DNA of 37,793 nucleotides from a virus: IMG/VR virus record IMGVR_UViG_3300035670_000633, positions 1 to 37,793 of that record; one strand, 5' to 3'. This document shows, one piece after another, positions 2,759 to 35,510 of the stretch; position 1 is the stretch's first letter, and every line of letters starts with the position of its first letter. The notes under the pieces are model-generated. The model was given only the letters and a program-made list of their open reading frames with translations, had not been told where the DNA came from and made no database searches. Both the position numbers and the translations under genes were made by a program.

Positions 2759-3038
2759 GCGTCGAGGACGACCTCCCAAAGCAATTTGCCCGAATGGTGC
2801 GCAGGGAGATCCTGCGACAGCTGTAATACCAGGTGAAAGCCTGGGGCGGTCTGTTCATGTGCCGCCTGCGTGTGAAACAAAGGGCATTTTTTCCGAACCC
2901 GAGCAGGACATCGCTGCCGGTGACAAGACCCCTGCCGTCGTCGAATGGCGCAGGCAATATTGGCCCAAAGATCAATTCGATGCCGTTTATCCACCGACGC
3001 GCCGAATGAACACGAACAACGAACCCAAAAAACAATGA
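2742..3038 (+). CDS. Small basic protein with AT-hook-like N-terminus
   Basis: This is a 98-aa protein from ATG 2742; an upstream ATG at 2700 is possible but lies deeper in the previous gene. The N-terminus reads P-P-S-K-R-R-G-R-P-P-K, which resembles an AT-hook (R-G-R-P core) that binds the minor groove of A/T-rich DNA. The rest is polar, with V-V-E-W-R-R-Q-Y-W-P-K-D-Q-F near residue 70. It overlaps 17 bases of the preceding gene and shares ATGA with the scaffold start at 3035. The DNA-binding role is inferred only from the short basic motif. Confidence 0.65.
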   Translation: MNPPSKRRGRPPKAICPNGAQGDPATAVIPGESLGRSVHVPPACETKGIFSEPEQDIAAGDKTPAVVEWRRQYWPKDQFDAVYPPTRRMNTNNEPKKQ

Positions 3039-3901
3039 GCGACGAAGCAAACACCACGACCACGACCGAAACCGCCAGCACGGCCACAGAAACCCATCAA
3101 ACGGCGACCGCAACGTCAACCGAGTCTAGCAGCACCCAAGTCGGGTTTGCCGCGTTTCTCGACGAATCTGGTGCGAAGTTCAAGGAAGGCTGGACTGCCG
3201 GCCTACCCGATCACCTCAAGCCGTTCGAAAAGACCCTGGCAAAATTTCCGTCACCGACTGACTTGCTCGGTTCTTACGCCAACCTCGAAAAGAAGCTGTC
3301 GAGCAAGACACCGACAGCACCTGGCGCCGATGCCACCGACGAGCAACGTGCCGAATGGCGCAAGCTGATCGGGGCGCCGGCAACGCCCGAGGACTACGGT
3401 TTGGCACCAGGCGAAGGCATGGAGGCTACTTGGAACGCCGAGATGGCAAAATCGGCTGCAAGCGTGGCTCATAAATACGGCATCCCCCAGGCTGCACTCG
3501 GTGAACTGGTCGAGCTTTACAATTCGACCATGCGAAGTGCGGCTGAATCTGCGGAAGCTGAAGCTGCGGGCGAGGCGGAGCGAGTCATGGCAACGCTTAA
3601 GAAGGAATGGGGCAAAGACGCTGGCGCCAACGCCGGTCGAGTCCAGCGTGCTGCCACAAGCCTGGGGCTGGATCTGTCCGATCCCAAATACGGCAACGAC
3701 CCGAACATCGCCAAGGCGCTTTTGCGCTACGACCTGCAGTTCAACGAAGACGCCGGCCTGATCGGCGCAGGCGAAGCCGCAGGCTACAAGTCGCGCATGG
3801 AGCAGATCGACAGCAAGCTTCGGTCGCTGCCAGCGAGTTCGGACGAAGCGCAAAGCCTGGTCGCTGAAAAGCGTCGACTGTGGGAAGCGCTCCAACGATA
3901 A
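3035..3901 (+). CDS. Putative scaffolding (capsid assembly) protein
   Basis: This is a 288-aa acidic, helix-rich protein placed between portal and major capsid genes, the usual site of the podovirus scaffold. Residues 1-35 are a Thr/Ser/Glu low-complexity tail. Residues about 40-130 carry a pattern seen in phage capsid-assembly proteins: K-F-K-E-G-W-T-A-G-L-P, S-Y-A-N-L-E-K-K-L, E-W-R-K-L-I-G-A-P and P-E-D-Y-G-L. A long Ala/Glu helix follows, and the C-terminus is basic and coiled-coil-like (K-L-R-S-L-P, V-A-E-K-R-R-L-W). ATG 3035 is chosen because of the ATGA overlap. Scaffolds direct capsid protein into procapsids and then leave. No protease domain is visible. Confidence 0.78.
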   Translation: MSDEANTTTTTETASTATETHQTATATSTESSSTQVGFAAFLDESGAKFKEGWTAGLPDHLKPFEKTLAKFPSPTDLLGSYANLEKKLSSKTPTAPGADATDEQRAEWRKLIGAPATPEDYGLAPGEGMEATWNAEMAKSAASVAHKYGIPQAALGELVELYNSTMRSAAESAEAEAAGEAERVMATLKKEWGKDAGANAGRVQRAATSLGLDLSDPKYGNDPNIAKALLRYDLQFNEDAGLIGAGEAAGYKSRMEQIDSKLRSLPASSDEAQSLVAEKRRLWEALQR

Positions 3902-3956
3902 CCCAGTAGAAACCCAACAGAAACCCAGCGGGAACCCAACAGGAACCCACTGGGTT
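3902..3956 (+). repeat. Tandem 11-bp iteron array, five copies (second array)
   Basis: Five direct repeats stand exactly 11 bases apart, starting at 3902, 3913, 3924, 3935 and 3946: CCCAGTAGAAA, CCCAACAGAAA, CCCAGCGGGAA, CCCAACAGGAA and CCCACTGGGTT. They match the six-copy array inside the DUF1376 replication gene at 33894-33959 in unit length, orientation and consensus (CCC-A-R-Y-R-G-N-A-A). The array begins one base before the end of the scaffold stop codon and lies between convergent genes, so it is not coding. A spacing of one helical turn fits an oligomeric DNA-binding protein. The likely ligand is the initiator protein. Confidence 0.85.
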
Positions 3957-3960
3957 TTTT
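3944..3960 (+). terminator. Short hairpin with T-run after scaffold gene
   Basis: The sequence AACCC-ACT-GGGTT followed by four more T residues could form a 5-bp hairpin ending in a U-tract, formed from the last iteron. It would end transcription of the portal-scaffold unit before the convergent minus-strand genes. The stem is short and the loop only three bases, so terminator strength is doubtful. Confidence 0.4.
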
Positions 3961-3961
3961 G

Positions 3962-4177
3962 TTAGCTTTGACCGTGGACGGGTTTTTTGGTGCGGTTTTG
4001 TTTGTCGATCAGATACTCAAGACGCTTGACGGTTTTGTATCCGGCAATCAACCCTCCGTCTGACAACAGGTAGCGGCAAAGCTCTTTTTCTTCCGTTGTT
4101 GCGGCGTGTTTTTCCAGCAGCACGATGCTGGCATAACTGGCAAAAAGGAGGTTGCTGAGGTGTTCAAGTTTGGTCAT
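3962..4177 (-). CDS. Small helical protein, minus-strand unit
   Basis: This 71-aa protein starts with ATG at 4177 on the minus strand. The start is preceded by an A/C-rich leader (TTTAACACAACC) and no Shine-Dalgarno sequence. The sequence is amphipathic and helical (L-E-H-L-S-N-L-L-F-A-S-Y-A-S-I-V-L-L-E-K, then E-E-K-E-L-C-R-Y-L-L), with a basic C-terminus. I do not recognise a family. It lies beyond the minus-strand terminator at 4485-4523 and probably has its own promoter and a roughly 170-base structured leader. It converges on the scaffold gene, with the iteron array between them. Confidence 0.6.
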   Translation of the reverse strand: MTKLEHLSNLLFASYASIVLLEKHAATTEEKELCRYLLSDGGLIAGYKTVKRLEYLIDKQNRTKKPVHGQS

Positions 4178-30264: not shown

Positions 30265-30468
30265 ATGACAAACGAACAACGCATCACCATCCTGGTGGCA
30301 CTGAAAAACATGCTCGACGACTCGGCCAAATGCCGTGACAACGCGCAAAAACAACTCGCCAAAACCGGCGACCCGTATTGGCAGGAGTCCATTGACTACT
30401 GGCAAAGCTCTCACCAACGCTACCTGTCTGCACACAGCACCATGCTGCACCTCAACACCATCAACTAA
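30265..30468 (+). CDS. Small helical protein, unknown function
   Basis: This is a 67-aa protein from ATG 30265 (context GACC-ATG). It is helical and polar: I-T-I-L-V-A-L-K-N-M-L-D-D-S-A-K, then W-Q-E-S-I-D-Y-W-Q-S-S-H-Q-R-Y and a short polar tail. There are no motifs. It lies between the tail-anchored protein and the annealase gene and probably shares their transcript. Confidence 0.6.
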   Translation: MTNEQRITILVALKNMLDDSAKCRDNAQKQLAKTGDPYWQESIDYWQSSHQRYLSAHSTMLHLNTIN

Positions 30469-30487
30469 ACCCAACGAAACCACGACA

Positions 30488-31324
30488 ATGAACACTGAAC
30501 TCACCACCACCACCACCGAAGTCACTGACCTGCAGATCCAGCGTGAAAACGCGGCATTTGAACTGCTGCAGCGCCAGGCAAAAATGTTTGCCAGCAGCAG
30601 CCTGGTCCCGAAGGAATTCCAGGGCAACCTGGCCAACTGCGCGATCGGCATCAACATCGCCAAGCGCTTAGGCGCGGACCCGTTTATGGTGCTGCAGAAC
30701 ATCGACATCATCCACGGTCGTCCCAGCTTCCGCGCTTCCTTCCTGATCGCCATGGTCAATGCCAGCGGCAGGTTTGAACCGCTGCAGTTCAAGGTCGAAG
30801 GCGAGGGTGCCAAGCGTTCCTGCATCGCTTGGACTCGACCGAAGGGGGGCGGCGAACCGCTCGAGGGTCCACCGGTGTCCTTGGAGATGGCAAAGGCTGA
30901 AGGCTGGTCCACCAAGAACGGCAGCAAGTGGCAGACCCTGCCGGATCTGATGCTGCGCTATCGTGCCGCCGCGTTCTTCGCTCGCCTTTACGCCCCCGAC
31001 ATCACCCTCGGCATGCTCACTGTCGAGGAAACGCAGGACATCGCTCCGGTGCGCGACGTCACCCCGAAGGTCAAGTCCGCCAGCCAGAGCAAGCTGTTCA
31101 GCACCCCCGAGCCGGCACCGCTGGTCGAGGTCGAGGCTGAGTCTGTCGCCAGCCAGATCGCCGGCAAATGCGCAGCCAGCGGCATCTCTTGGTCGGACGT
31201 TGCACGCATCGCATGCGACAACGGCCTGGCCGATGACATTTACCAGTCGCCCGAACAGGCGCCGGACACGACGCTGTCGGACATCCTTTCGGCCTGGTCG
31301 CAGATTGAACTTGCCGCGAAGTAA
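30488..31324 (+). CDS. RecT-like single-strand annealing recombinase
   Basis: This 278-aa protein starts at ATG 30488 after an A/C-rich leader, with a Thr-rich N-terminus. Features fitting the RecT family are helices with A-I-G-I-N-I-A-K-R-L-G-A-D-P and V-L-Q-N-I-D-I-I-H-G-R-P-S-F-R-A. The segment L-P-D-L-M-L-R-Y-R-A-A-A-F-F-A-R-L-Y-A-P is the most characteristic. RecT proteins anneal complementary single strands and work with a partner 5'-3' exonuclease; the PD-(D/E)XK nuclease gene follows 24 bases later. From about residue 195 the tail is variable and ends in a helical domain of about 45 residues. Confidence 0.85.
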   Translation: MNTELTTTTTEVTDLQIQRENAAFELLQRQAKMFASSSLVPKEFQGNLANCAIGINIAKRLGADPFMVLQNIDIIHGRPSFRASFLIAMVNASGRFEPLQFKVEGEGAKRSCIAWTRPKGGGEPLEGPPVSLEMAKAEGWSTKNGSKWQTLPDLMLRYRAAAFFARLYAPDITLGMLTVEETQDIAPVRDVTPKVKSASQSKLFSTPEPAPLVEVEAESVASQIAGKCAASGISWSDVARIACDNGLADDIYQSPEQAPDTTLSDILSAWSQIELAAK

Positions 31325-31348: not shown

Positions 31349-32530
31349 ATGAACACCACCGACGAACGTCACGGCCTGCCATCGGCCTCAAAGATGGATC
31401 GGGTTTCCAATTGCCCATGGTCGCACAAGGCCGAATCGTTTTTTCCAGCCGAGGAAACCAACGAAGCAGCCAGCAGTGGCACGCGCATCCATGCCGTCCT
31501 AGCCGGCGCCGCCAGTTCGGACACGCTTACCGTTGCCGAGCAGGAGACTGCCGAAATGTGCGCACGCCAGGCTGCGGAACTGATCGCGGCATGGCAAACC
31601 GAAGATGCGCACCTGGTCACGCTCAAGGAGGAACGCCTGTGGCTACACAAGGGCAGTTTGGTCATGCGCAAAGCCGGCACCGGTGCCACGTTTTCCGGTC
31701 AGGCGGACCTAATCCTGATCGACAAAAACGAGCGTCGTGCTTTGGTCATCGATTACAAGACCGGGCGCGGCGAGCAAACTGAAGCGGTCGATAACCCGCA
31801 GCTTGCAAGCCTTGCTGTGCTGGTGGCGAACTATTGCGACTGCGACCAGGTGCGCGTTGCACTCGTCCAGCCATGGGCAGGCAAGCCGACGGTCGCGGAT
31901 TACGACGAAGACGCGCTCGATCGTGCGTCGATTTGGCTGCGTGAGTCGCTGCATGCAGCCGAGTTTTCGGTGCCTGGCATGGCCAAGGCCGGACCCTGGT
32001 GCAAATGGTGCAAAGCTGCGTCAAACAACGCATGCCCTGCGTTTCGACGCTACACCGAGCAGGTGCCGGCATTGCTGCAGCCCGAAACTGTTGCAGACCT
32101 GTCGCCAAAGGAACAACTCCAAGAACTGTTTCGTCGGGCACTACGCATGCCAGCGTCTGAATTGGCAGACGCTATCGGCAAGCTTACTCTGGTCGGCAAA
32201 GCGATCGATGCGCTGAAGGACGCTGCCAAGCAACGGGCGCAGGATGACCCCGAGTTTCAGCAGTTCTACACGTTGCGCGAGAAGGCTGGGCGCCGTTCGA
32301 TCTCCGATGTCGGTGAGGCATTCAGCCGGTCGGCTGCGCTCGGTGTCAGTGCTGTCGACTTCACAAGTGCCTGCAAGGTGCCAATGTCGTCGATACGCGA
32401 TCTCCTGGGCAAAGCTACCGGGCAGAAGGGCAAAGCGCTCGACGCACTCGTCGACAGCGTGCTTGACGGCATCACCGAGCAGTCAGAACCGACTGCCGAA
32501 CTTAAAGCTGTGGAAGGAGGTGCGCGATGA
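31349..32530 (+). CDS. PD-(D/E)XK exonuclease, partner of RecT
   Basis: This 393-aa protein shows Cas4/RecB-like nuclease motifs: H48 in G-T-R-I-H-A-V-L, D120 in G-Q-A-D-L-I-L-I-D, D135-Y-K137 in V-I-D-Y-K-T-G-R-G and Q151 in N-P-Q-L-A-S-L. The N-terminus, P-S-A-S-K-M-D-R-V-S-N-C-P, and later C-K-W-C-K-A-A-S-N-N-A-C-P-A resemble phage DUF2800-type nucleases with a Cys cluster. It should resect DNA 5'-3' to make the single strands that the annealase uses. The C-terminal 150 residues are helical. The leader is A/C-rich. Confidence 0.85.
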   Translation: MNTTDERHGLPSASKMDRVSNCPWSHKAESFFPAEETNEAASSGTRIHAVLAGAASSDTLTVAEQETAEMCARQAAELIAAWQTEDAHLVTLKEERLWLHKGSLVMRKAGTGATFSGQADLILIDKNERRALVIDYKTGRGEQTEAVDNPQLASLAVLVANYCDCDQVRVALVQPWAGKPTVADYDEDALDRASIWLRESLHAAEFSVPGMAKAGPWCKWCKAASNNACPAFRRYTEQVPALLQPETVADLSPKEQLQELFRRALRMPASELADAIGKLTLVGKAIDALKDAAKQRAQDDPEFQQFYTLREKAGRRSISDVGEAFSRSAALGVSAVDFTSACKVPMSSIRDLLGKATGQKGKALDALVDSVLDGITEQSEPTAELKAVEGGAR

Positions 32531-33262: not shown

Positions 33263-33573
33263 TCTCCGAAAAGACCGTCAAAGCTTTGCGCTTGGCATTG
33301 TGTCCAAATGCGGAGAAGGGCGAATGGCAGGCAGCAGCAGTCGCTGCCATCGGATTGCTCCGAAAGGATGGACTCGGTTGGGAAGATCTGTTCCGACCCA
33401 TTCGTGAAAAGGAGCACAACGAAACCATGCCGTTTGGAAAGTTTCGAGGCTGGAAATTGCAATCGATACCGACCGACTATTTGCGCTGGATGATCGAGCG
33501 TGCTGCAGGCGTTCCGCAAGATCTCCGCAACCGCATTCTGTTTGAACTAGACCAACGACAAAAGAACCAATGA
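33259..33573 (+). CDS. DUF3820-like protein
   Basis: This 104-aa protein has an N-terminal helical part (residues 1-45: A-L-R-L-A-L-C-P-N-A-E-K-G-E-W-Q-A-A). A C-terminal segment reads M-P-F-G-K-F-R-G-W-K-L, then I-P-T-D-Y-L-R-W-M, the hallmark of DUF3820 domains. Such domains occur in phage replication blocks and beside exonucleases, but no activity is proven. It is coupled by ATGA on both sides, between the resolvase-like nuclease and the initiator gene. Confidence 0.75.
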   Translation: MISEKTVKALRLALCPNAEKGEWQAAAVAAIGLLRKDGLGWEDLFRPIREKEHNETMPFGKFRGWKLQSIPTDYLRWMIERAAGVPQDLRNRILFELDQRQKNQ

Positions 33574-34250
33574 ACTATTATCCTTTCCATGTCGGTGACT
33601 ACCTCCGCGACACCGTCCATCTCGAGCCGATGGAGGATCTCGCATACCGACGTCTGCTCGACCTCTACTACCTGACCGAGGCGCCGATCCCGCTGGAAAC
33701 CCAGTCGGTTAGCCGTAGGTTACGTCTGGGTTTTGATGTGGTCGAAATGGTGTTGAATGAGTTCTTCAATCGCACCGATGATGGATACATTCACAAGCGT
33801 TGTGATGCAGAAATCGCATCATATCAACGTCGATCTGAGCGTGCCAGGCTCAACGGAAAGGCCGGCGGACGTCCTAAGAATCAACAAATTAAACCCAGTG
33901 GGTTCCCAGTAGGATCCCAGCAGGAACCCAGTGGCAACCCAGTGGCAACCCAGTGGAAAGCTAACCATAACCATAACCATATTACTTCCTTAGGTTTCAA
34001 AGCGTTCTGGGAAGCATATCCGAAAAAGGTTGGAAAAGGGTTTGCTGCAAAAGCTTGGGAAAAGCAAAAACCGGATGTCAACCAGGTGCTCAATGCATTG
34101 GCCTGGCAAACCGTTCAGCCGAACTGGACCAAGGACAACGGGCAATACGTTCCAAACCCGGCAACCTACATCAACCAACAGCGCTGGTTGGATGAGCCGC
34201 AACAAGGACAAAGCACGATCACGACGCTCGTCAAATCCTCCTGCCTTTGA
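33570..34250 (+). CDS. Replication initiator / helicase loader, DUF1376 family
   Basis: This 226-aa protein opens with the DUF1376 (YdaU) pattern: Y-Y-P-F-H-V-G-D-Y-L-R-D-T, then L-E-P-M-E-D-L-A-Y-R-R-L-L-D-L-Y-Y. This N-terminal domain is a winged-helix DNA binder. Residues about 100-138 are a Pro/Gln/Asn-rich linker encoded by the iterons. The C-terminus (F-W-E-A-Y-P-K-K-V-G-K-G, then P-A-T-Y-I-N-Q-Q-R-W-L) is shared by phage helicase loaders. With the DnaB-like helicase directly downstream it fills the role of lambda O and P in one protein. Confidence 0.82.
   Translation: MNYYPFHVGDYLRDTVHLEPMEDLAYRRLLDLYYLTEAPIPLETQSVSRRLRLGFDVVEMVLNEFFNRTDDGYIHKRCDAEIASYQRRSERARLNGKAGGRPKNQQIKPSGFPVGSQQEPSGNPVATQWKANHNHNHITSLGFKAFWEAYPKKVGKGFAAKAWEKQKPDVNQVLNALAWQTVQPNWTKDNGQYVPNPATYINQQRWLDEPQQGQSTITTLVKSSCL
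33894..33959 (+). repeat. Tandem 11-bp iteron array, six copies, probable origin
   Basis: Six direct repeats stand exactly 11 bases apart: CCCAGTGGGTT, CCCAGTAGGAT, CCCAGCAGGAA, CCCAGTGGCAA, CCCAGTGGCAA and CCCAGTGGAAA. They lie in the linker region of the DUF1376 initiator gene. Eleven is not a multiple of three, so successive copies are read in different frames and the repeat is kept at DNA level, not protein level. In lambda the O protein binds iterons inside its own gene in the same way. Confidence 0.9.
33963..33980 (+). repeat. AACCAT triplicate beside the iterons (possible unwinding element)
   Basis: AACCAT is repeated three times without a gap directly after the iterons, then the sequence continues A/T-rich (ATTACTTCCTTAGG). 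It encodes alternating Asn-His. An A/T-rich direct repeat beside iterons is the usual layout of a duplex-unwinding element. Confidence 0.65.
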
Positions 34251-34253
34251 ACC

Positions 34254-35510
34254 ATGAACTACATCGCAACAGCAACCGAAGACGCGCTTCTGGCGACGTT
34301 CGCCCAGTTTCCCGATACGCTGGTTCGCAACATCCATGCGATCACCGGAGAGATGTTCGCTCAACAAAACCGCCCCGTTTTTCGTGAGGTTCTCGAGGCG
34401 GCACTGGCTGGACAGCATCCAGACCTGCTGATCATTACCGCAAAGCTGCGCCAGGCCAACGAACTCGAGGCAGTGGGTGGCGCCGCCCAGATGTCCGAAC
34501 TTTGGACCGCACCCGTTTCGCCAAGGAATGCCCAAAAACTCATTGCAGACCTTCGCCGCTGCCATGAGGCTCGGAAACGGCTGGAAGCGCTAAAATCGGC
34601 ACAGGAATGCTTGGAAACGGCCATGCTGTCCGGTTCGTCGTTGCTTGAGGCGTTCCAGCAGACCGAGAATATGTTGGCCGAAGCCGGAAAAATCCCTGGC
34701 AAAGCCTTGGCGAGCAAATCGATGAAGATCCTGGCCGGCGAACTCATAGACGAACTTGAAGACCGTCTTGCGAATGCGGGTCGGATCCCTGGCGTCTCAA
34801 CCGGGTTTCCGACTATCGACCGGGAAAGCGGCGGCATGCAGGGTGGGAAAGTTTGGGTCGTCTGCGGTCGCCCAGGTGATGGCAAGTCGGTCTTGATGCA
34901 AAATTTCTGCGAGTCTGCGATCGAGCAGGGCAGGTCGGTGCGGATTTACCCGCTCGAGATGTCCCAGGCCGAGCAAGCATTTCGCGTGCTTTGCAGCACC
35001 GGTGGCATCGACAACCAGTCCATGGGCCGAGGCACACTCACTCGCACCGAGCAGGAAGCTATGGCCTTGGCGCTGAAGCGCATGAGCGCAATGAAGGCGG
35101 ATATCGTCGACGTCGATGGCGCCACTGCATCCGACATCCTGCACGACATCGAGCAGTGCGATGCCGACGTCATCATGGTCGATTATTTGCAGCTGATGGA
35201 GGACACCGGACCCCGCAAAGGCGCGACCCGTGAGGAGATCATCGCCAGCGTTTCCAGGCGCCTCAAGCGCACCGCAAAAAAGTCGAACAAGATCGTGCTA
35301 ACCGCCAGCCAGCTGAATGACAATGGACAGCTGCGCGAGTCTCGGGCGATCGGCCAGGACGCTGATGCCGTGTTTCGCATCGAGAAAATCGACGGCAAAG
35401 ACGATGCTCGCACGCTCATTTGCGACAAGCTGCGCGGCGGCAAGCGACTCTGGACAAAGCAACTCGATTTCCTCGGTCACATTTACAAGTTCCGTGAACC
35501 CATCATGTAA
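34254..35510 (+). CDS. DnaB-like replicative helicase
   Basis: This is a 418-aa protein. The N-terminal helical domain (residues 1-100: E-D-A-L-L-A-T-F, then G-G-A-A-Q-M-S-E-L) fits DnaB_N. The RecA-type core has Walker A G-R-P-G-D-G-K-S at 205-212, an E-M-S-Q-A-E motif near 235 and Walker B V-I-M-V-D-Y-L-Q-L with D310. The sensor region is A-S-Q-L-N, and the arginine-finger region is I-G-Q-D-A-D-A-V-F. It unwinds DNA at the fork after loading by the initiator upstream. No primase domain is fused, so host primase is probably used. Confidence 0.92.
   Translation: MNYIATATEDALLATFAQFPDTLVRNIHAITGEMFAQQNRPVFREVLEAALAGQHPDLLIITAKLRQANELEAVGGAAQMSELWTAPVSPRNAQKLIADLRRCHEARKRLEALKSAQECLETAMLSGSSLLEAFQQTENMLAEAGKIPGKALASKSMKILAGELIDELEDRLANAGRIPGVSTGFPTIDRESGGMQGGKVWVVCGRPGDGKSVLMQNFCESAIEQGRSVRIYPLEMSQAEQAFRVLCSTGGIDNQSMGRGTLTRTEQEAMALALKRMSAMKADIVDVDGATASDILHDIEQCDADVIMVDYLQLMEDTGPRKGATREEIIASVSRRLKRTAKKSNKIVLTASQLNDNGQLRESRAIGQDADAVFRIEKIDGKDDARTLICDKLRGGKRLWTKQLDFLGHIYKFREPIM

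Follow-up and report, generated by a model that had tools for sequence, protein, structure and literature searches.

Replication origins that lie within an initiator gene are an already established kind. In lambda and the Stx phages, the origin sits in the middle of the O gene, where O-binding iterons are followed by an AT-rich tract; O is dimeric, and the two tract-proximal iterons are enough in vitro (PMC7466680). SPP1 has direct repeats, oriL, in gene 38 and a second site, oriR, among its head genes. Both are bound by gp38, oriR has been proposed to stall forks, and SPP1 also encodes the DnaB-type gp40 (PMC6316719). Plasmid Rep proteins are reported to contact the AT-rich unwinding element sequence specifically in its single-stranded form (PMC4081077). 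For the Rac prophage an active origin, oriJ, has been reported (PMC3945230), for which we found no coordinates in the open literature. In the open literature searched, the subscription literature being outside the scope of this work, DUF1376 is mentioned once each in five papers, and its function is not the subject of any of their titles or abstracts.

The DUF1376 gene described here was found in a virus record from IMG/VR; the window analyzed is the whole record, 37,793 bp in length. Its features are collected in Table 1. The DUF1376 protein is, we believe with good confidence, a phage replication initiator with the origin in its own gene, a reading in which binding, melting, helicase loading, and firing are all inferred. 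It rests on the arrays, the constraint on the DNA, recurrence across the family, the coupling of unit and domain, cassette exchange, and the gene neighborhood.

Table 1. Positions in the window of the features discussed in the text
Feature	Position	Strand	Basis
Second (ectopic) array of the in-gene unit, five copies, intergenic	3900..3954	+	Pattern search; kept in relative G016
3' part of ectopic array plus TTTTTTGTT, terminator-like hairpin	3916..3963	+	Folding
DUF1376 gene (226 aa), proposed replication initiator with its own origin	33570..34250	+	PF07120 and PHROG matches
Winged-helix-like DNA-binding domain codons, residues 1-97	33570..33860	+	AlphaFold model, VIA matches
Degenerate iteron cluster (AACCCAGTCGG TTAGCCGTAGG TTACGTCTGGG), in the codons of helix 2 and the beginning of helix 3	33698..33730	+	7-mer enrichment; relatives
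Six 11-bp iterons, consensus AACCCAGTGGN	33892..33957	+	TRF, pattern search, codon shuffles, relatives
TAACCA x3.3 tract (AACCAT x3), proposed unwinding/loading element	33962..33981	+	TRF; relatives
Helical domain at the C terminus (FW..YPKK...WTKDNGQYVPNPATYINQQRW), putative contact for helicase or loader	33990..34175	+	pLDDT 92-96 over most
DnaB-like replicative helicase	34254..35510	+	DnaB_C 1.1e-38, phrog_19 1.6e-57

The DUF1376 gene and its neighbors

The product of the gene matches PF07120 in Pfam over residues 2 to 83 (3.7e-24), and its score of 85.4 bits against the model cut-off of 30.1 places it in the DUF1376 family. It also matches phrog_9327, “primosomal protein” (5.7e-46), and its C-terminal part matches phrog_9474/270, “replication initiation protein.” In the AlphaFold model, helices at residues 20 to 36, 44 to 51, and 55 to 65 are followed by a wing and then by a long helix at residues 76 to 97, with pLDDT values of 94 to 98 over most of residues 11 to 90. 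Nearly all VIA matches (Z 5 to 6) are winged-helix domains, mainly across residues 18 to 82, and a Foldseek search of the model against the PDB gave no match at E≤0.001. Since the structural matches are generic winged-helix ones only (Z<6), we claim no specific structural relative for the protein. Residues 101 to 140, between the winged-helix-like domain and the helical C-terminal domain, are predicted to be disordered (pLDDT about 50). The array lies in this linker, where the preliminary description had also placed it.

That description had also called the origin lambda-O-like. As an account of how the locus may work, the comparison stands: as in lambda and the Stx phages, iterons within the initiator gene are followed by an easily melted or A-rich tract, the layout of a lambda-type origin. 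As a statement of family membership it does not. The Pfam scan gives DUF1376 only, with no O homology; no O-like family is named among the PHROG matches listed for the protein, which are to primosomal and replication initiation families; the units are of 11 bp rather than lambda sized; an extra iteron cluster lies in the binding-domain codons; and the gene next door encodes a DnaB-type helicase, not P.

The helicase ORF begins 3 bp past the DUF1376 stop codon. Upstream of the initiator are a PD-(D/E)XK/DUF2800 nuclease (31349-32530) and a RecT-like protein (30335-31324), a recombination pair; SPP1 likewise has a recombination pair near its replication genes. GC skew gave no clear or usable origin signal in the window, including around the DUF1376 gene, a point against our reading.

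The FW..YPKK C-terminal domain is also present behind other N-terminal domains, in the initiators L027 to L034, with HTH_36 in L029 and L030. In three initiators that share it and have non-DUF1376 N termini (L034, 9548-10267; L029, 7463-8275; L032, 5707-6453), the linker also contains repeats, with lengths of 22, 16, and 15 bp; TTGCCAAATCGATTTGGCAAAT is an example.

The in-gene array and constraint on its DNA

Six 11-bp direct repeats followed by three AACCAT units had been noted before, and both are confirmed by TRF, which detects each of them, and by the unit positions. The units, in order AACCCAGTGGG TTCCCAGTAGG ATCCCAGCAGG AACCCAGTGGC AACCCAGTGGC AACCCAGTGGA, start at 33892, 33903, 33914, 33925, 33936, and 33947. 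Their reading frames run 1, 0, 2, 1, 0, 2, taking in all three frames, so that the repeat is out of step with the codons. The period-11 score is 35.0, whereas 20,000 synonymous-codon shuffles of the gene reach 25.5 at most. For the window as a whole, 40 first-order Markov copies gave no score above 12.5 over periods 7 to 25. The TAACCA tract is G-free on the coding strand and adjoins A/T-rich DNA. It is short, with only three copies of a 6-bp unit, which counts against our reading of the locus as an origin.

Two close relatives, L002 and L003, encode proteins 94% and 93% identical to the window protein. Compared with these, none of 58 comparable linker codons has a synonymous change, versus 68 of 311 in most of the remaining gene (Fisher p=2e-6). 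The window sequence is common to both comparisons; L002 against L003 alone gives synonymous changes at 0 of 28 codons in the linker versus 36 of 158. The earlier inference that selection acts on the DNA is upheld by this absence of synonymous linker changes, along with the reading frames and the codon shuffles.

Repeats of this kind could in principle be a by-product of slippage, or of amino acid selection for a flexible Asn/Pro/Thr linker, and the disordered linker and the simple repeats of the tracts are what such an explanation would have. However, the periods, 7 and 11, do not keep step with the codons and are destroyed by synonymous-codon shuffles, and the explanation is already contradicted by the 0/58 synonymous linker changes and by the non-coding array at 3900 described below. 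Furthermore, the heptamer is found in almost no other viral gene among the matches listed, and the linker unit recurs in codons of a structured domain. We find a by-product scarcely credible.

A second array of the same unit

The pattern [AT][AT]CCCA[AGC][CT][AG]G has 11 plus-strand matches in the window, with six in the gene, five at 3900-3954, and none elsewhere. The ectopic units (AACCCAGTAGA AACCCAACAGA AACCCAGCGGG AACCCAACAGG AACCCACTGGG) directly follow a scaffold-like ORF (2945-3901). Neither this array nor the degenerate copy in the DNA-binding-domain codons (33698-33730) had been noted in the preliminary description. The close relative G016 has both arrays; its ectopic units 2 to 5 are identical to those of the window, and its unit 1 retains AACCCA. 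The window and G016 thus have, as SPP1 does, two sites, the second being an array of the in-gene unit away from the gene. The window is like SPP1 also in its in-gene repeats and its phage-encoded DnaB-type helicase, but it has no gp39-type loader gene between initiator and helicase, and its second array is without a tract.

Among 40 genomes, the window, G016, and G014 are clear outliers for extra arrays (mismatched-linker null, p about 0.001); that of G014 is just upstream of its DUF1376 gene. Second arrays in G021 (p about 0.004) and G009 are weak leads only. Clear distant second arrays are confined to one lineage in this set, those of most other genomes being weak or absent, which does not favor our reading, and we reject for now the idea of an ectopic array as a general rule, since it is clear only in the window lineage (window and G016) and in G014. 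In non-coding DNA, the iteron unit proper to the host gene also forms small clusters, at G024 26353, G030 18406, G026 24229, and G021 26489. They lie upstream of genes resembling terminase small subunits and are leads only.

Folding of 3895-3965 gives -22.5 kcal/mol (z -4.2, versus -2.5 for the in-gene array), and with the terminator-like hairpin found there the ectopic array may have two jobs. This stable hairpin and its U-run end would also fit arrays that act as RNA, through hairpins for termination, attenuation, or translation control. A terminator, however, requires one hairpin and not five or six direct 11-bp units on one strand; arrays of class B, class C, and the heptamer type differ widely in sequence; and the unit varies with the DNA-binding domain. 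An explanation in terms of RNA is in our judgment very improbable.

Arrays across the DUF1376 family

The check named in the preliminary description, for such repeats in other DUF1376 genes, came out in its favor: the arrays proved to be a family trait. After removal of redundancy at 75% identity, the set comprised 79 DUF1376 genes. In 46 of them a tandem period not divisible by three goes beyond codon shuffles (p≤0.01), with periods of 7, 11, 14, and 22 dominating. One gene, L146, whose best array is a run of N, was excluded from later counts. In a matched comparison, 42 of 74 non-redundant DUF1376 genes but only 7 of 256 flanking ORFs have arrays that run out of frame at a codon-shuffle p≤0.01; for chains of ACCA at 6- to 7-bp steps, the counts are 45/74 and 0/256. 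Against our reading, the strict test detects no significant simple tandem array in about 40% of DUF1376 genes, though degenerate dyads are visible in several.

The linkers share a common plan of dyad-like iterons, then a tract, and then the C-terminal domain, the iterons being 5' of the tract in all 33 scorable genes. In most array-bearing genes, 11-bp dyad iterons precede an A/C-rich tract, often (AACCAWN)n. The dyads are of the types AACCCA.TGGGTT, AACG..CGTT, AACCGA.TCGGTT, ATGCC..GGCAT, TGCGAACGCA, and TCTGAAATCAGA, and the tract takes forms such as (AACCAWN)n, (ACCAAC)n, and (ACAGAA)n. The common form (ACCAAC)n is not A/T-rich, a further point against an origin. The tract encodes NHNH, PTPT, TNTN, or TRTI, depending on the gene, and with peptides so different it is the DNA that is shared, not the peptide. 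The neighbors of DUF1376 genes encode DnaB helicases or primase, a YdaV AAA protein, or replication protein P.

A few cases stand apart. A predicted ORF in L080 has an array of period 11 on its non-coding strand; on reading, the region is without an AACCCA-type unit, and the array was not counted. Short DUF1376 proteins of 112 to 116 aa in L118 and L125 (gene start 4001) are without linker, array, and C-terminal domain, and may regulate or antagonize the full-length initiators. At a contig end (G002:C1:1-184, L047), a 15-bp unit (GCACCGCCCAGGTTG) is repeated in tandem twelve times, a stretch that probably codes for pentapeptide repeats.

Unbiased scans of viral contigs

DNA scans of 2.9 million viral contigs, made without regard to genes, lead back to DUF1376. 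The results are a sample of matches, and totals are at least those listed. For AACCAWN x4, 77 of the 80 loci among the matches listed are inside DUF1376 ORFs (66 non-redundant proteins), all on the coding strand, and two of the other three lie no more than 150 bp from the end of a contig. Matches listed for the AACGNNCGTT array fall inside DUF1376 ORFs in 52 of 80 cases and those for the AACCCA array in 29 of 80; the remaining class A and B matches among those listed are mostly in other phage initiator-like genes, at a similar gene position.

Among 50 such proteins, 17 match phrog_9327 (primosomal), 15 match phrog_9474 and 14 match phrog_2562 (replication initiation), 11 match phrog_678 (O-like), and 14 match Pfam Lin1244_N. 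Nine match DUF1376 in Pfam at E≤0.01, though they were undetected by the HMM used in the analysis. The other class A and B initiators (Lin1244_N, DUF6291, and PHROG replication initiation, O-like, or DnaD-like proteins) are like DUF1376 in the position of the 11-bp array, behind the N-terminal domain and a basic GGRPKK-like motif, but their N-terminal domains are not detected as DUF1376 by HMM search.

A PF07120 search of 14 contigs with intergenic class A arrays gave no match, and these arrays are not counted as support. In L222, L242, L245, L249, L254, L258, L263, and L264, contigs without a DUF1376 match, intergenic AACCCA 11-bp arrays are followed by AACCAT/AACCAATGG and then by GATAGATAGAATATC-type inverted repeats. 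They are possibly non-coding origins of another phage group.

Iteron copies within the DNA-binding-domain codons

The linker unit also appears in the codons of the DNA-binding domain. Across 73 genes, 7-mers from a gene's own linker occur 9.30 times per gene in the domain codons, compared to 4.34±0.39 with permuted linkers (5.89 at most in 5,000 permutations) and 5.65 when the domain codons are shuffled. Their peaks, at gene nt 110-140 and 150-180, correspond in the model to helices 2 and 3. AACCCA/TGGGTT is present in 19 of 23 class A domains versus 5 of 51 others. AACCGA/TCGGTT is present in 9 of 10 class C domains and also in 14 of 23 class A domains, TCGGTT being a possible end of the A dyad. 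Among the close relatives, gene nt 121-180 is unusually conserved, with 2 and 1 of 60 nt differing from L002 and L003, and the codon test lends this block weaker support (p=0.04).

Unit class tracks the domain tree, with 20 changes versus 43.5 when shuffled. Relatedness alone would also favor such agreement, and the within-gene match is the stronger test. That unit type goes with the DNA-binding domain is supported by the sequences, and it bears only indirectly on binding of the units by the protein, which is inferred.

Cassette exchange in Escherichia coli

The ydaU gene of E. coli K-12 is a DUF1376 gene (PF07120, 2.7e-26), followed by the gene for the AAA protein YdaV, and some relatives bear the RefSeq label “phage replication initiator YdaU family protein.” YdaU of Rac is like the window protein in its DUF1376 domain and its linker dyads (TGTTCAAACA); it differs in that the periodicity is only weak (p=0.03), which counts against our reading. 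Across 5,426 E. coli genomes, many partial ydaU matches stop at nt 485-506, just past the linker. Strain LZSFT34 has the N-terminal part of ydaU, with its TGTTCAAACA dyads, joined to a DnaT domain directly upstream of replication protein P, a lambda-like neighbor. Other strains have an unrelated N-terminal domain joined to the YdaU C terminus and then YdaV, and the dyad of that domain, GTAACGC..GCGTTAC, is present both in the domain codons and in the linker. DNA-binding domain and sites are thus exchanged as one, and the C terminus goes with the helicase-loading partner.

Two kinds of locus deserve mention. In the E. coli prophages L202 to L205 (286-1074), a domain without a Pfam match (MASNWIKLEVITPDKPEIFRLAEILN...) stands in place of DUF1376 ahead of the YdaU C terminus, with GTAACGC dyads of its own. 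In NZ_AP027197.1 at 1894123 (L200, 701-1195), ydaU is broken just past the linker beside an IS3-family element, and the broken gene retains the DNA-binding domain plus the iterons.

The position of the E. coli exchange points, just past the linker, might suggest that the arrays are recombination junctions for the exchange of initiator modules and are kept mainly for that. Yet the iterons are exchanged with the N-terminal domain, which makes the array cargo and not junction, and the units differ among families, leaving no shared homology; we see next to no chance that this is what the arrays are for. The same exchanges bear on the possibility that the arrays are operators, the winged-helix protein being an autorepressor or regulator at its own gene and at a late-gene site, with no origin role. 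Its winged-helix fold, the dyad units, and the position of the ectopic array, where a late-type gene ends, are all in keeping with a regulator. But the C terminus swaps together with the matching loader; the sites are mid-gene beside a conserved tract and rarely upstream (G014 only); the neighbors encode helicase, loader, P, or primase; and array genes of other families match “replication initiation” PHROGs. We consider operators unlikely and retain the reading of the protein as an initiator.

Proposed mechanism and implications

In the mechanism we propose for this initiator, the N-terminal winged-helix domain would bind the 11-bp iterons along one face of the DNA in the linker-coding region, and would also bind the second iteron cluster in the helix-turn-helix codons. 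Since the units are dyads, it probably binds as dimers. The nucleoprotein complex would open the adjacent G-free AACCAT/AACCAWN tract, and the C-terminal domain would then recruit the DnaB-type helicase encoded next to it, directly or via a loader. The ectopic five-unit array in the late gene region could be bound by the initiator as well, as oriR is in SPP1, and may stall forks, titrate the initiator, or serve as a second origin.

A more detailed reading, common to DUF1376 and kindred initiators, remains tentative, and we would not yet call it probable. With binding sites in both the linker and the recognition-helix codons, protein specificity and site would move and co-evolve as a single cassette; (AACCAWN)n, always on the same strand, would be a sequence-specific single-strand loading element and not merely an A/T-rich melting zone; and the distant array would control forks in some phages. 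The reported precedent of plasmid Rep proteins and single-stranded DNA (PMC4081077) makes a sequence-specific role of the heptamer tract plausible, though unproven. The family-wide origin anatomy, the heptamer signature, the iteron cluster in binding-domain codons, and the distant array of this window look new, a priority that is provisional given that subscription literature was not covered.

For the phages and prophages, many in number, that carry DUF1376, a domain of unknown function becomes a concrete candidate for an origin-binding initiator. Its DNA signatures, the 11-bp dyad arrays and AACCAWN heptamers, locate candidate origins in the genomes of uncultured phages, and since arrays also mark initiator genes of other families, origin finding from sequence appears feasible for much of phage diversity. 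Sites that lie in the codons of their reader's own helices offer an unusually tight case for the study of protein-site co-evolution.
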